Shown here: piece by piece, positions 7,721-18,412 of the stretch | Layout of the letters: every line of letters starts with the position of its first letter | Numbering within the stretch: the stretch's first letter is position 1 | Source: Candidatus Kerfeldbacteria bacterium CG08_land_8_20_14_0_20_40_16 | Lineage (GTDB): Bacteria > Patescibacteriota > Patescibacteriia > UM-FILTER-42-10 | Direction: 5' to 3' | DNA: 33,645 nt | Assembly (NCBI GenBank): GCA_002774635.1 | Contig: PEXU01000004.1 | Span: 1 to 33,645, forward strand | The notes under the pieces: generated by a model | The model's input: the letters and a program-made list of their open reading frames with translations, nothing else | The model's database searches: none | What the model was told of the DNA's origin: nothing | Translations under genes and position numbers: made by a program

Positions 7721-7761
7721 ACAATTTCCGTTATTTTATCACGATTTTGGCATAAATAAAA

Positions 7762-7789
7762 GAAAGCGATAAACTAGCGCATCGCTTTC
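7762..7789 (-). terminator. Terminator at the end of the hairpin-rich unit (possibly bidirectional)
   Basis: GAAAGCGAT (7762-7770) pairs with ATCGCTTTC (7781-7789). On the minus strand TTTTATTTAT follows the stem, and on the plus strand a run of CTTTCTTTTTT follows. It lies about 40 bases upstream of the murJ start and would close the minus-strand transcript that starts near 9714. Confidence 0.6.
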
Positions 7790-7835
7790 TTTCTTTTTTA
7801 AGATAATCCTCTCCTCTTTTTGTTTTTCTTGCTTA

Positions 7836-7985
7836 GAAGCACTGTGCTGCTGGCAATGGAATAGCATAGGATTATACGAACTTTAGAATGAGAATTATCC
7901 CGCTGACGCGGGATAGAGGAGAGAGTTTTTCATTCTGAGGTCCGATCTATGCCTTGATATCCATCCACCAACAGCACACTGCTTC
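7836..7985. repeat. Long imperfect inverted repeat (about 35-bp arms) with nested palindromes
   Basis: The left arm 7836-7869 (GAAGCACTGTGCTG...ATGGA...CATAG) pairs with the right arm 7947-7985 (CTATGCC...TCCAT...CAGCACACTGCTTC), with few mismatches and small bulges. Inside are AGAATGA/TCATTCT and the palindrome ATCCCGC-TGAC-GCGGGAT (about 7898-7915). The whole folds as one long hairpin. Confidence 0.75.
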
Positions 7986-8034
7986 CAACACTATTAATAT
8001 AATTTTATCTGCTGAATTGTCAAATTACCTTTTT

Positions 8035-8106
8035 AACAGAAAGAATTGGAGCGAAGAGATTTGATAAGGAATAATTATTTAAGCTCCGCTACAATTTTCT
8101 CCTTTA
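8035..8106. repeat. Hairpin module A
   Basis: AGAAAGAATTGGAGC at the left pairs imperfectly with GCTCC-gctac-AATTTTCTCCTTT at the right. The arm sequence is shared with modules B to E. The interior is AT-rich. Confidence 0.55.
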
Positions 8107-8114
8107 AAATTTAA

Positions 8115-8188
8115 TATCAAAGAAAGAACTGAAGGTGAATTGCAGGCCTTCCGATTCGCCAAATTCACCTCCATTTCTCTCCTTGAAA
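8115..8188. repeat. Hairpin module B
   Basis: The left arm 8115-8141 (TATCAAAGAAAGAACTGAAGG then TGAATT) pairs with the right arm 8162-8188 (AATTCACCTC then CATTTCTCTCCTTGA). The core GGTGAATT/AATTCACC is perfect. The loop is about 20 bases. Confidence 0.65.
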
Positions 8189-8286
8189 CTATTCTTCCAT
8201 CAGAAATATCCTTAATTTTCAAAAAGCTTTTTTAATCAATTGATCCGTCAAAGGCGGACATGTCTTTCTTTAAAAAAAGATAGGAA

Positions 8287-8340
8287 GGGAACCGCAAGCA
8301 ATGGAAACGAACTGATGGATTAATATTACTTGCGGTTCCC
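8287..8340. repeat. Perfect 12-bp stem hairpin between modules
   Basis: GGGAACCGCAAG (8287-8298) pairs perfectly with CTTGCGGTTCCC (8329-8340) around a 30-base loop. It is not followed by a T-run on either strand, so it is not an obvious terminator. Confidence 0.7.
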
Positions 8341-8380
8341 CCATGGTTTGTGCGGCTGGGAGGTAGGAAATAAGGTAGGA

Positions 8381-8562
8381 TTTTAAGGAGAGATTTGGAG
8401 GCGTCCCGCTCAAGCGAGATGTTATGTGACTTAATCAAGTAAAACTTGATATCACATTAACAGCAAGTAAATAGAGTAAGGTTCTAGTTTGCACCAGATC
8501 CTACATCCTTTATACTGTTAGTCGAGCTGAGCTCGACTCCTCCTCCAAACTTCTCCTTAAAA
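8381..8562. repeat. Hairpin module C, with further nested hairpins
   Basis: The 21-base arms at 8381-8401 (TTTTAAGGAGAGATTTGGAG...) and 8542-8562 pair at 19 of 21 positions. Nested inside are TTATGTG...CACATTAA with ACTTGAT/ATCAAGT, AACAG...CTGTT, and AGTCGAGCT-G-AGCTCGACT. This is the longest member of the shared-arm family. Confidence 0.75.
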
Positions 8563-8586
8563 CCGATTGATAAGGTACCTTTCCCT

Positions 8587-8717
8587 ATTTCAGCAAATCG
8601 AGCTCTTGGGCGAAGTCTCGAGTCCCGCGCCTGCGGGACGAGGGAACCAGGTTATTTCTCAACTCAGCCCTGTTTCAGCAGGCATAGACATTAGCCGATA
8701 CCCGCTGGAATAGAGGG
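8587..8717. repeat. Inverted repeat region with inner palindromes
   Basis: CCCTATTTCAGC near 8590 pairs with GCTGGAATAGAGGGG near 8704-8718 with one mismatch and one extra base. Between them are TCGAGCTC...GTCTCGAG and GTCCCGC-GCCT-GCGGGAC (about 8624-8640). It lies directly downstream (minus sense) of the tRNA-like element. Confidence 0.55.
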
Positions 8718-8743
8718 GCGAAAATCACATAGATTTTTCGCCC
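8716..8743. repeat. GGGCGAAAA hairpin, copy 1
   Basis: GGGCGAAAATC pairs with GATTTTTCGCCC around a short loop. The 14-base sequence TAGAGGGGCGAAAA at 8711-8724 recurs exactly at 8931-8944, 220 bases away, where a second related hairpin forms. The two copies flank the tRNA-like element. Confidence 0.7.
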
Positions 8744-8751
8744 GGAATTTG

Positions 8752-8869
8752 TGGCTGGTAGAGGAGTCGAACCTCGTCAAGTTAGTTTCCTAACTCCGTC
8801 CACTATGCCGCGAGAGGCATAGTTTCCTAGGGAATGGTTACCCTCCATATTGCCGTCTGGGACCAGCCA
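8752..8869 (-). ncRNA. tRNA-like folded element, identity unknown
   Basis: On the minus strand TGGCTGGT (8869-8862) pairs perfectly with ACCAGCCA (8759-8752) as an 8-bp acceptor-like stem. Directly inside it is a T-arm-like hairpin GAGG-TTCGACT-CCTC. The rest contains AGTTAG-GAAA-CTAACT (variable-arm-like), ACTATGCC-TCTCGC-GGCATAGT, and AGGG-TAACCATT-CCCT. No loop has U33 plus a credible anticodon, and there is no encoded CCA after the discriminator position. It is not a standard tRNA, tRNA-Sec or tmRNA. It could be a tRNA gene remodelled by hairpin insertions or a separate tRNA-mimic RNA. Confidence 0.45.
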
Positions 8870-8935
8870 AACTTTTAAGGTACTATACCCCTATCTTAAC
8901 AAACATCTTATCTTTGATTATTTACTAAGATAGAG

Positions 8936-8963
8936 GGGCGAAAAGACAGAGTCAAATTCGCCC
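8936..8963. repeat. GGGCGAAAA hairpin, copy 2
   Basis: GGGCGAA...TTCGCCC forms a hairpin related to the one at 8716-8743 but with a different loop. It is preceded by CTATCTTA...TAAGATAG (8891-8933), another inverted repeat. Confidence 0.65.
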
Positions 8964-9039
8964 TGCTAAAAGTACTAACAGCAAATGCTTTCAACATTCC
9001 AAGGAGGTACTGACCATTTGGATTTCAATCATCTTCTTT

Positions 9040-9228
9040 TTAGAAATCCTTCCTCGCCCTGAACACCATAACCACACATACTATGGCCACGACGGTATTA
9101 GCTACCGCCACGATTCTGTTAAAAGCTCCCGTTTGAAAGGACCACGCCACCACTTCGTTCAATAGTGAAGTGGCTAGCCAAATTACCATTGCGATACGCG
9201 CTTTCTTATAGATGTAGTACAATTTCAT
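9040..9228 (-). CDS. Small hydrophobic protein, two predicted membrane segments
   Basis: 62 residues. A GGAG motif stands 6 bases before the ATG, giving a reasonable ribosome binding site. The sequence has a basic N-terminus (MKLYYIYKKAR), one hydrophobic segment at about 12-26, a second at about 40-56, and a basic end (FRARKDF). It lies about 480 bases downstream of the strong minus-strand promoter at 9721-9749, between hairpin modules. It resembles small holin- or toxin-like membrane peptides only in general shape; I do not recognise a family and claim no function. Confidence 0.5.
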   Translation of the reverse strand: MKLYYIYKKARIAMVIWLATSLLNEVVAWSFQTGAFNRIVAVANTVVAIVCVVMVFRARKDF

Positions 9229-9254
9229 GTTTTCTCCAGTTTATGTTTCTGTTT

Positions 9255-9419
9255 GTCTTTTCAAAGAAAGAATTGGAGGCGATGATGGCCAAAGCTTATT
9301 GTTAAAAACAATGCTTATTAGACCTGGAAACATTCCGGTCAGGAAGTTTCCAGCCGAGGCCGGAAACTTCCTGGGAGACATTCCTTTTCTCTCTCCTCCA
9401 AATCTTTCTTGGAAAGACT
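9255..9419. repeat. Hairpin module D
   Basis: GTCTTTTCAAAGAAAGAATT at 9255 onward, continuing GGAGG, pairs with CCTCCAAATCTTTCTTGGAA ending GAC at 9419, an outer stem of about 24 bp. Nested are ATTGTT-AAA-AACAAT and AGGAAGTTTCC...GGAAACTTCCT. The start of the 62-residue ORF lies just outside on the minus-strand 3' side. Confidence 0.7.
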
Positions 9420-9438
9420 TTTTTTAAGGAACTTTTAC

Positions 9439-9560
9439 TAAGAAAGAATTGGAGGCGGATTGAGGCAAGGGCCCTAATTTTAATTTAAGAAGCTGTGACC
9501 TCCTCTTCACTAAACTTTGTGGATCTTTGTCCAAAAGTTTAGTCCTCCTCCAAATCTTTC
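9439..9560. repeat. Hairpin module E
   Basis: AGAAAGAATTGGAGG (9441-9455) pairs with CCTCCAAATCTTTC (9547-9560). Nested is ACTAAACTTT...AAAGTTTAGT with an inner GGA/TCC. It has the same arm sequence as module D. Confidence 0.65.
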
Positions 9561-9590
9561 CCAGTGAAGATATTGCAACGTACTTTTTTC

Positions 9591-9642
9591 GAGCAATTAA
9601 AACGGGCTCTCACACTTTTTGGAGAGAGCCCGTTTATTGCTC
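9591..9642. repeat. Long hairpin near the start of the structured unit
   Basis: GAGCAATTAAAACGGGCTCT (9591 onward) pairs with GAGAGCCCGTTTATTGCTC (9624-9642), giving about 18 bp with one small bulge. On the minus strand it is followed by GAAAAAAG, so early termination or attenuation here is possible. Confidence 0.7.
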
Positions 9643-9720
9643 AATAATTTATTAACACTAATAACTTTGATTCTCTCTCCCCGATAGACTTTTTAAGGAC
9701 ATTTTGATTTTTAACCTAGC

Positions 9721-9749
9721 AGTATATACCAGGCGAAAAATTTTGTCAA
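9721..9749 (-). promoter_or_regulatory. Strong sigma70-type promoter reading into the hairpin array
   Basis: On the minus strand a perfect -35 TTGACA (9749-9744) is followed after exactly 17 bases by TATACT (9726-9721). Transcription would start near 9714 and run left. Directly upstream of it, in the same orientation, is the terminator of the polysaccharide operon, so this is a separate transcription unit. Confidence 0.75.
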
Positions 9750-9773: not shown

Positions 9774-9797
9774 AAATTGGCTAATCTTAGCCAATTT
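9774..9797 (-). terminator. Terminator of the polysaccharide/DUF4012 operon
   Basis: AAATTGGCTAA (9774-9784) pairs perfectly with TTAGCCAATTT (9787-9797). On the minus strand the stem is followed by TTATTGTTTT. It lies about 120 bases after the DUF4012 stop codon and immediately before the promoter of the hairpin array. Confidence 0.75.
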
Positions 9798-12190: not shown

Positions 12191-13318
12191 TTAGGTTAGT
12201 TTTTGAAGATAGATCGAATGAGTCCGCTCTACCATTTTTCCCCAGCTGAATTTCTTTACATGCTCTAATCCTTTGGCTTTTAACTGATTTCTAAGCTTTT
12301 CATCAACTACCAGTCTTTTAACTACTCTCACTATATCATCAATTTTAGTAGGATCAAAGTATTCCGCCGCATCCTGCAGAATTTCTGGTAGACAAGGTGC
12401 TTTTGAAGAAGCAACCGGTAAACCATAACTCATTGCTTCTAAGGGCGGTAACCCAAAACCCTCGATCGAGGAGGGAAAAACGTATAATAGGGCATTTCGA
12501 TAATAAAGGGGCAATTCTCGATCTTCGACAAAACCGGTAAAGATAACGTCTTCTGCTAGGTTCATCTCTTTTGCTTTCGCTTGAAGCCGTTTAGAAAAAT
12601 AATCCTCTTTACCAACCAAAACCAATTGGATATTCAACTTTTCTTCTTTAATCAGTTTCTGAAAAGCGGCTAGCATTTTTTCTAAATTCTTGTGAGGATA
12701 AGTATTACCCACGTAAAGTAAAAAGGGCTTGGTAATTTTAAACCTGCGAGCTAATTCCTCAAAAGAAGCAGTAATTGCGAGAGGAAGATCGCAAGCCTCG
12801 TAAGTTACCGCCACTTTTTCATCAGGGAGTTTAAAATGCCTTATAATCTCCTGCTTCGAAAACTTAGAAACCGTAATTATTTTTTTTGCCCTTTTAGCTG
12901 CAAACCAAATTACTATCCGATAACCAAACTGCTTTATCTTATAAAGCAACGGTCCGAGAGTAGTGGCTCTTCTGGTAGGAAAGTGAGTGATGATTAAATC
13001 ATGGATCGTAACAATAAACTTGCCCCAATAAAAAATAGGAACGTTAAAATGAGGAAAATGCATCAGATCTACTTGCGTTTTGGAAATCTTTATCGGCATG
13101 AAAATCTGCTCGGCAAGAGAATACCAGCGATAATCAGCCAATACTTTGATAAAATTGGGGCTTTTGGGCTTAAAACTATCCCAGTTGTCTTTTTTTAGAA
13201 AAATAAGATAGGTGTTTTCCTGATCGATCTCCTGAAGATAATCAACCAGCTTCTGGGTGTATCGCCCTGGCCCGGTGCGAGTCGGCCCGTAAAATCGGGC
13301 ATCAATTCCTATCCGCAT
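12191..13318 (-). CDS. GT4-family glycosyltransferase
   Basis: 375 residues with the GT-B fold pattern of GT4 enzymes. The N-terminal acceptor domain opens MRIGIDARFYGPTRTGPGRY. The nucleotide-sugar domain starts near 198 (FLLYVGNTYPHKN). The donor-binding motif EGFGLPPLEAMSYGLPVASS is near residue 285-300, with the conserved E-x7-E glutamates in it. There is no membrane segment; it is expected at the cytoplasmic face, adding a sugar to a lipid-linked glycan. The sugar is unknown. It is in the operon between a second GT4 gene (154 bases upstream) and the DUF4012 gene (3 bases downstream). Confidence 0.9.
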   Translation of the reverse strand: MRIGIDARFYGPTRTGPGRYTQKLVDYLQEIDQENTYLIFLKKDNWDSFKPKSPNFIKVLADYRWYSLAEQIFMPIKISKTQVDLMHFPHFNVPIFYWGKFIVTIHDLIITHFPTRRATTLGPLLYKIKQFGYRIVIWFAAKRAKKIITVSKFSKQEIIRHFKLPDEKVAVTYEACDLPLAITASFEELARRFKITKPFLLYVGNTYPHKNLEKMLAAFQKLIKEEKLNIQLVLVGKEDYFSKRLQAKAKEMNLAEDVIFTGFVEDRELPLYYRNALLYVFPSSIEGFGLPPLEAMSYGLPVASSKAPCLPEILQDAAEYFDPTKIDDIVRVVKRLVVDEKLRNQLKAKGLEHVKKFSWGKMVERTHSIYLQKLT

Positions 13319-17881: not shown

Positions 17882-17917
17882 TGTGCCTTGAGTTTAGTCT
17901 ATAAGCCGAATTCTGTC

Positions 17918-18023
17918 CCCCCACACCATTTGTCGTAATGATTTTTGTAAGTCCTAGTGCGATTAGCTAAATTTGATTCCATTGTTCAAACTAACCAACC
18001 TATTTCGACAGATGGTGTGGGGG
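17918..18023 (-). other. RNase P RNA P19-position helix with an 84-base structured insert
   Basis: CCCCCACACCA (17918-17928) pairs perfectly with TGGTGTGGGGG (18013-18023), directly before the universal 3' segment. The interior can fold further: TGTCG/CGACA, GGTTAG/CTAATC and TTTGA/TCAAA. In model class A RNAs this position has no helix or a short one. Confidence 0.7.
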
Positions 18024-18412
18024 TGATGATTATCTATCTTGTCCCGCAGACGCGGGATCTAGCAATCAACCCATCCCGCGTTTGCGGGATCTATTTGATC
18101 TTGCACCGGATAGGGTTTTTCACTCCGCACTGTTACCAATGTAGAGAGAGGATTCTTAGGCCCTCACTTTTCACCCTTGTCCCGCTGATGCGGGACGGTA
18201 TTGTCTCTGTGACACTTTCCCTAGATTTCAAGATATTTAAAAACCTATAGGTACTTTTAAAGATCTTTCCATCCGGCCCGAGTTACAGGCTATCCATTCG
18301 ACTCGGTCCCGCTTTCGCGTGACCTCGCTCAGGACAAGTCCCCTTTCTAGAGGGCCTGCCCCGAGCGAGCCCCCGATAGGGGGTAAGTCGAGGGGTGTTC
18401 GGACTTTCCTCC

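Follow-up and report, generated by a model that had tools for sequence, protein, structure and literature searches.

We propose that the 2-kb unit lying between a DUF4012 protein gene and murJ is an RNA-controlled operon and that the structured RNA at its 3′ end belongs to a new small-RNA family controlling a leader attenuator of the very cargo operon that encodes it (probability about 0.55). The window, a 33,645-nt stretch of DNA from a Candidatus Kerfeldbacteria bacterium, is contig C34 of a 1.13-Mb genome in which this region is single copy, and the unit and both flanking genes run in the same direction. Because the 3′ RNA carries an invariant loop that matches the beginning of the predicted long RNA, the locus may form a self-regulating RNA switch. 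In the proposed mechanism, promoter P1 would start a long RNA, probably aided by a DNA-binding protein at the palindrome GGCTAA-nn-TTAGCC. Leader element A (GGAGAGAG) would pair with element B (CUCUCUCC); since B is part of a terminator-like hairpin or sits at its edge, A:B pairing would act as an anti-terminator, and transcription would continue through the hairpin modules and small cargo ORFs. The 3′ end would give rise to a rod-shaped small RNA of 130 to 180 nt that displays the invariant loop CUCUCUCCUC; some genomes would transcribe it from a dedicated promoter, P2, or it might be processed out of the long RNA. Once the small RNA had accumulated, its loop would bind A, B would be freed, the terminator would form, and the operon would be turned off, constituting negative feedback. 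Module M2 would offer the loop a second target in many genomes.

Table 1. Features of the transcription unit, with positions numbered along the window.
Feature	Position	Strand	Remarks
Palindrome GGCTAATCTTAGCC, putative operator	9779..9792		upstream of P1
Promoter P1, TTGACA-17-TATACT	9721..9749	-	11/12 consensus bases; also in sister and distant genomes
Leader element A, GGGGAGAGAG	9673..9682	-	complementary to B and to the 3′ RNA loop
Leader hairpin ending UUUU	9591..9642	-	element B CUCUCUCC (9628-9621) in 5′ arm and loop
Module M1, GATTTGGAGG..CCTCCAATTC stem	9439..9560	-	same arms in sister genomes
Module M2	9255..9419	-	contains GAGGAGAGAG at 9398-9389
Cargo ORF, 62 aa, probable small membrane protein	9040..9228	-	Shine–Dalgarno-like sequence
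Double hairpin X1 (h1 + h2) after ORF	8885..8963	-	
tRNA-like cloverleaf	8752..8869	-	acceptor GGCUGGU/ACCAGCC; T-arm GAGG-UUCGACU-CCUC; fold z = -3.35
Double hairpin X2	8665..8743	-	recurs after ORFs in sister genome
Module with shared outer arms	8381..8562	-	
Hairpin GGGAACCGCAAG..CTTGCGGTTCCC	8287..8340	-	
Module with shared outer arms	8115..8188	-	conserved in G002
Module with shared outer arms	8035..8106	-	
Promoter-like P2, TTGACA-16-TATATT	7996..8023	-	just ahead of last hairpin
Rod-shaped 3′ small RNA	7832..7990	-	unpaired loop AAAACUCUCUCCUC at 7929-7916
Terminator-like hairpin AGAAAGCGAT..ATCGCTTTCTTTT	7762..7789	-	after 3′ RNA; visible in sequence

Within one class of tiny uncultured CPR/Patescibacteria, many families have the same locus, placed either between DUF4012 and murJ or ahead of ftsK. 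At least 17 genomes have the same architecture between DUF4012 and murJ. In distant genomes, with DUF4012 proteins 38 to 41% identical, 0.5 to 6.3 kb separates the two genes and follows the plan of the window, and in the ftsK-linked versions (G009, G030, G039) leader and 3′ RNA lie on the same strand, 2.1 to 3.3 kb apart. At one locus (L054), DUF4012 directly adjoins murJ with no insert. The nearest relative, G002, also a Candidatus Kerfeldbacteria genome, carries a longer version at the same place, split over two contig ends (L046, L045); MAG contigs frequently stop within such arrays, and G001 has the same beginning as the window locus before its contig ends. At 63 to 86% DNA identity, G002 has counterparts of the promoter, the leader, the M modules, the N and X elements, the tRNA-like element, and the 3′ hairpin. 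Its ORFs (152, 65, 125, and 163 aa) differ from those of the window, its M2 is duplicated, and a 145-nt block is found at two of its ORF ends. Across the relatives, promoter, leader, modules, and 3′ RNA are conserved, and ORFs and individual module copies come and go. The earlier note, made from the window sequence, had called for this comparison and had suggested a cassette-like structured RNA in one transcribed locus, a description close to the comparative picture.

The 3′ RNA is a rod of 130 to 180 nt whose unpaired loop, AAAWCUCUCUCCUC, does not vary and is complementary to A. In the window, positions 7990-7832 fold with −71.3 kcal/mol, compared with −37.3 ± 3.8 kcal/mol for shuffled sequences (z = −9.0), and leave 14 nt around ACUCUCUCCUC unpaired. 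In 14 genomes the 3′ element folds as a rod; stem sequences differ from genome to genome, and the CUCUCUCC loop is always presented, mostly unpaired. Of the 381 genomes of the class, 64 contain the exact loop pattern AAAWCTCTCTCCTC and 4 the reversed pattern; outside the class, the loop pattern is near background. Among 63 loop hits examined, 47 fold with z < −3, and in 40 of these 47 the loop is at least 90% unpaired; about 7 of the 63 look like chance. The 3′ RNA is usually present in one copy per genome, upstream of murJ, upstream of ftsK (G008, G009, G030, G039, G200), or elsewhere, with rpoC, lepA, and infB among its contexts.

Covariation supports the fold. In family f46 (16 aligned sequences), 30 of the 46 rod pairs show compensatory double changes and the loop is invariant. 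The alignment contains 94 covariation cells, compared with 28.3 ± 4.7 after shuffling, and scores 0.477 relative to 0.231; each of the five covariation measures lies above its value in all 500 shuffles, and the signal is lost when the partner strands are slid (score < 0.14). The compensatory changes that the earlier note had asked for in the stems are thus present in those of the 3′ RNA, where the reading as a structured RNA stands. It is scarcely credible that the region is a passive accumulation of palindromic repeats between genes: inverted repeats are indeed numerous, but the locus is single copy and conserved across families, and compensatory changes far above controls, together with the invariant loop, refute this explanation for the 3′ RNA. 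A covariance model built from f46 only retrieves full-length relatives in many other families (E from 3e-19 to 7e-3), including the murJ-linked loci L051, L055, L056, L130, L166, and L167. Because the rod is near-palindromic, reverse-strand matches contaminated the alignment of multifamily hits. Applied to the 3′ RNA of the window, the model recognizes the loop only, and a search of the window genome with it returned no match at E ≤ 1; membership of this copy in the family rests on its exact loop, rod fold, and synteny.

The leader of the window (9714-9590) also folds more stably than shuffled sequence (z = −4.6). Counted from the start of the −35 box, element A lies at 44 to 87 nt, in most cases at 60 to 75 nt, and usually takes the form (G/C)(A/T)GGAGAGAG. 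Element B is found in or beside the next hairpin, commonly with a T-run following. The complementarity of A to B has p ~0.01 against shuffles in the window leader; over 15 leaders the combined Fisher p is 7e-13 and over 14 more it is 3e-11, values that overstate independence because the leaders are related. The match is weak in six genomes (G069, G307, G364, G009, G039, and G071; p 0.14-0.5). Taken over the 29 leaders, an element able to pair with part of a downstream terminator is present, as expected of an attenuator. In f46, the terminator stem (in G283, for instance, CCCGTGTTTGG..TCTCTCCAGACATGGGATTTTTT) has the B sequence TCTCTCCAG within its 3′ strand, so A:B pairing and the terminator would be mutually exclusive. 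This overlap is clear in f46; the terminator of the window leader is non-canonical because its U-run lies partly within a long stem.

An attenuator of this kind would also call for a separate small RNA complementary to the leader element, and in most genomes A and the 3′ RNA loop (C) share 8 to 10 bp of complementarity. In G043, all three elements carry matching substitutions (GAGAAGAGAG / CTCTCTTC / CTCTCTTCTC for A, B, and C). The loop of f46 pairs with just 8 nt of A, and in G104 and G076, which belong to one family, A and the loop motif are both missing. Pairing of A with the loop in the window includes one G-U, and the exact 10-nt complement sits in M2. The earlier note had seen Shine–Dalgarno and anti-Shine–Dalgarno cores in the GGAGG/CCTCC arms of the modules. 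That idea is half right; the arms make up a conserved stem of their own, and what is conserved as complementarity between leader and 3′ RNA is GGAGAGAG with CUCUCUCC. We considered GAGGAGAGAG as a Shine–Dalgarno site and dropped it, there being no start codon at a conserved position after it.

In attenuators of the pT181 and pIP501 type, which are controlled by antisense RNA, a small RNA is complementary to the leader, anti-terminator and terminator exclude each other, and a promoter lies upstream. The present locus resembles them in all of these features, here as predictions. It differs in that leader and small RNA are not opposite strands of one sequence: the RNA is encoded downstream, where the operon ends. 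The RNA is chromosomal and would pair through a loop of 8 to 10 nt, and the operon has variable cargo rather than a replication gene. Attenuators controlled by antisense RNA are among the subjects reviewed in PMC5415839 and PMC7430163.

Two other readings fit the same data less well than the attenuator. In one, which we consider unlikely but worth keeping in view, the locus makes a single large structured RNA in which the CUCUCUCC loop and the GGAGAGAG elements of leader and M2 form long-range contacts, the ORFs are passengers, and no attenuation occurs. Short forms without convincing ORFs (G032, G069, G307) indicate that the RNA is retained even when cargo is missing, and such minimal forms keep the leader, the GGAGG modules, and the 3′ rod, as a single RNA would; the tRNA-like domain and the many modules point the same way. 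So does M2, which in many genomes often holds an exact complement of the loop, the GAGGAGAGAG copy being the sole one on the transcribed strand of the whole window genome. However, the putative contacts are separated by 0.4 to 6 kb of unrelated ORFs, the hairpin and T-run directly follow A with B inside the hairpin, P2 is enriched before the 3′ RNA, and intrinsic terminators come after it.

The other reading, to which we give rather little weight, takes the 3′ RNA for a general trans-acting small RNA that acts on Shine–Dalgarno-like GGAGAGAG sites in many mRNAs, with the neighboring operon as one target. Its usual single copy, its several gene contexts, and the anti-Shine–Dalgarno look of its loop would suit such a role. 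Yet exact GAGGAGAGAG sites are few (1 to 7 per genome), the only one on the transcribed strand of the window genome falls within the locus itself, and P1 and an A-containing leader lie upstream on the same strand in most cases with enough sequence.

The boundaries of the unit agree with those drawn in the earlier note, which had described a near-perfect promoter at 9749-9721 and a terminator at 7789-7762, both on the minus strand; the G002 equivalent of the latter hairpin is AAAGAAAGCGCGAA..TTCGCGCTTTCTTTG. Upstream of P1, a GGCTAA-nn-TTAGCC palindrome with at least 10 of 12 matches occurs within 130 nt at 14 of 29 loci, relative to 0.6% in shuffled sequence. Its distances to the −35 box cluster at about 10, 18 to 20, 29 to 31, and 39 nt, one helical turn apart, as would be expected if an activator bound on one side of the helix. 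Genome G025, which is complete, has exact GCTAATNTTAGC only at the P1 of the locus. Other genomes hold several GGCTAA-nn-TTAGCC sites, and for this reason the sites probably constitute a regulon. At the other end of the unit, a P2-like site scoring at least 10 precedes the 3′ RNA in 11 of 47 relatives, compared with 2.7% in shuffles; P2 is not universal, being absent from the sister genome G002.

Between the leader and the 3′ RNA, the five copies with shared arms (starting at 8031, 8114, 8380, 9258, and 9434) form one direct-repeat family, 79 to 100% identical to the reference copy and with partner arms as the earlier note had described them; the long stems it had listed at 7836-7985, 8287-8340, and 9591-9642 are likewise present. 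Its alternative suggestion, a family of miniature palindromic elements nesting at the locus, is contradicted by the region being single copy in the genome and syntenic in relatives. When we searched the genome for MITEs or dispersed palindromes, the copies found were the locus itself and one 34-nt hairpin match elsewhere. The note had seen little coding sequence; the unit is not purely non-coding, since a 62-aa ORF is plausible and the sister genomes contain further ORFs. That ORF matched no Pfam family above the cut-off. Judged by sequence, the small ORFs of many genomes can be regarded as cargo with no homology between genomes: among 66 ORFs with a Shine–Dalgarno-like sequence (22 loci), we found one homologous pair, which overlaps the tRNA-like element. 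Several cargo products look like lipoproteins, secreted proteins, or small membrane proteins; pentapeptide repeats occur in one, and another has a pilin-type N terminus.

The ORFs are followed by a hairpin pair in which h1 is variable and h2 is conserved in plan, and similarity among these pairs is higher inside one genome (0.72) than across genomes (0.59). Chromosomal integron arrays with attC sites and IntI are similar in that one promoter drives a series of small unrelated ORFs and a folded site stands behind every ORF. That the locus is an integron-like recombination array, with the post-ORF hairpins as folded recombination sites and the ORFs as captured cassettes, is nonetheless very improbable. 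The co-directional, unrelated ORFs with their genome-specific hairpin pairs and the 145-nt repeat in G002 would fit such an array, but attC boxes (RYYYAAC/GTTRRRY) number 0 to 1 per array, with no excess over shuffled sequence, and conserved RNA structures form the ends of the locus. Array-bearing complete or near-complete genomes have one tyrosine recombinase each (G000, G025, G043, G160, and G120). The two examined, in G000 and G025, score 129 to 132 bits against a cut-off of 265 for the integron integrase model TIGR02249 and match XerD/XerC best. No viral contigs with the h2 hairpin pattern were found.

Comparison with known RNAs gave no established family for the locus. At the gathering threshold, Rfam matches in the window and nine relatives were just RNase P and ordinary tRNAs, and a permissive scan of the region returned weak subthreshold matches only. 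Like 6S RNA, the 3′ RNA is rod-like, about 180 nt long, has an internal single-stranded region, and usually occurs once per genome; it differs in that the single-stranded part, an invariant loop rich in C and U, lies close to the apical end. RF00013 had no match at E ≤ 1 in 12 genomes, with the control detected in 6 of 14 known genomes. OLE, GOLLD, and ROOL (PMC12286853) are also large, highly structured bacterial RNAs under selection on structure, whereas the locus has no Rfam match and carries ORFs, an apparent attenuator, and a separate 3′ RNA. In the open-licence literature we found neither a small regulatory RNA described in CPR/Patescibacteria nor an earlier description of the locus or of the 3′ RNA.

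The 3′ RNA combines class-wide distribution, an invariant loop, strong compensatory changes, and a plausible target next door; being class-wide and having a computable model, it is open to immediate testing in public metatranscriptomes. In bacteria thought to be host-attached, variable small membrane or secreted cargo would indicate a self-limiting site reserved for surface or interaction genes that evolve fast. A broader and more tentative interpretation, which we hold as a possibility somewhat against the odds, is a new genetic platform, a self-regulating RNA locus ancestral to a whole class within the CPR/Patescibacteria, in which small, fast-turning genes for membrane and secreted proteins would be exchanged at a conserved RNA dock. 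No known recombinase would be involved, and the small RNA of the platform itself would set the dosage. The conserved RNA parts of such a platform would be the attenuator leader, the GGAGG modules, the ORF-capping hairpins, the tRNA-like domain, and the 3′ loop RNA.

The tRNA-like cloverleaf was missing from the earlier note. ARAGORN and RF00005 were negative for tRNA or tmRNA identity of 8869-8752, although its acceptor- and T-arm-like parts fold, and the element has counterparts at L046, L062, L055, and L056.

Within family f42, the leader element A and the loop of the 3′ RNA to which it is complementary are both kept in genome G043, with matching substitutions (L051 13800-13945, compared with L052 and L053), whereas G104 and G076 lack both. 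The G104 locus that lacks A and the loop RNA also carries a doubled TCTCGAGCGAAGTCGAGAGG palindromic repeat in near-identical copies, possibly reflecting invasion by a mobile repeat together with loss of the system.

In genome G120, two copies of promoter P1 and leader A lie within a single locus (L163). The two copies are ~1.46 kb apart, with a single 3′ RNA following the downstream copy, an arrangement that looks like the insertion of one unit into another.

Several GCTAATNTTAGC palindrome sites were found per genome, well above the count for the reversed pattern; in genome G000 they lie on contigs C4, C12, C32, C35, and C52, and other genomes carry them too. This palindrome may be the operator for a putative regulator of the class.

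The tRNA-like cloverleafs of the window and four related loci have an acceptor and a T-arm (GGTTCGA), and an anticodon is not recognisable in any of the five; the L056 element terminates in CCACCA. The window's RNase P class A RNA carries an unusually long insertion, which falls between positions 335 and 336 of the model.

Coordinates of RNA elements and repeats
Feature	Locus	Position	Strand	Length
tRNA-like cloverleaf	window	8869-8752	(-)	
tRNA-like cloverleaf	L046	5791-5921		
tRNA-like cloverleaf	L062	11034-11152		
tRNA-like cloverleaf	L056	18013-18152		
tRNA-like cloverleaf	L055	14135-14273		
RNase P class A RNA	window	17886-18342	(-)	~457 nt
TCTCGAGCGAAGTCGAGAGG repeat, one copy	L052 (G104)	12812-12930		
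TCTCGAGCGAAGTCGAGAGG repeat, other copy	L052 (G104)	from ~14349
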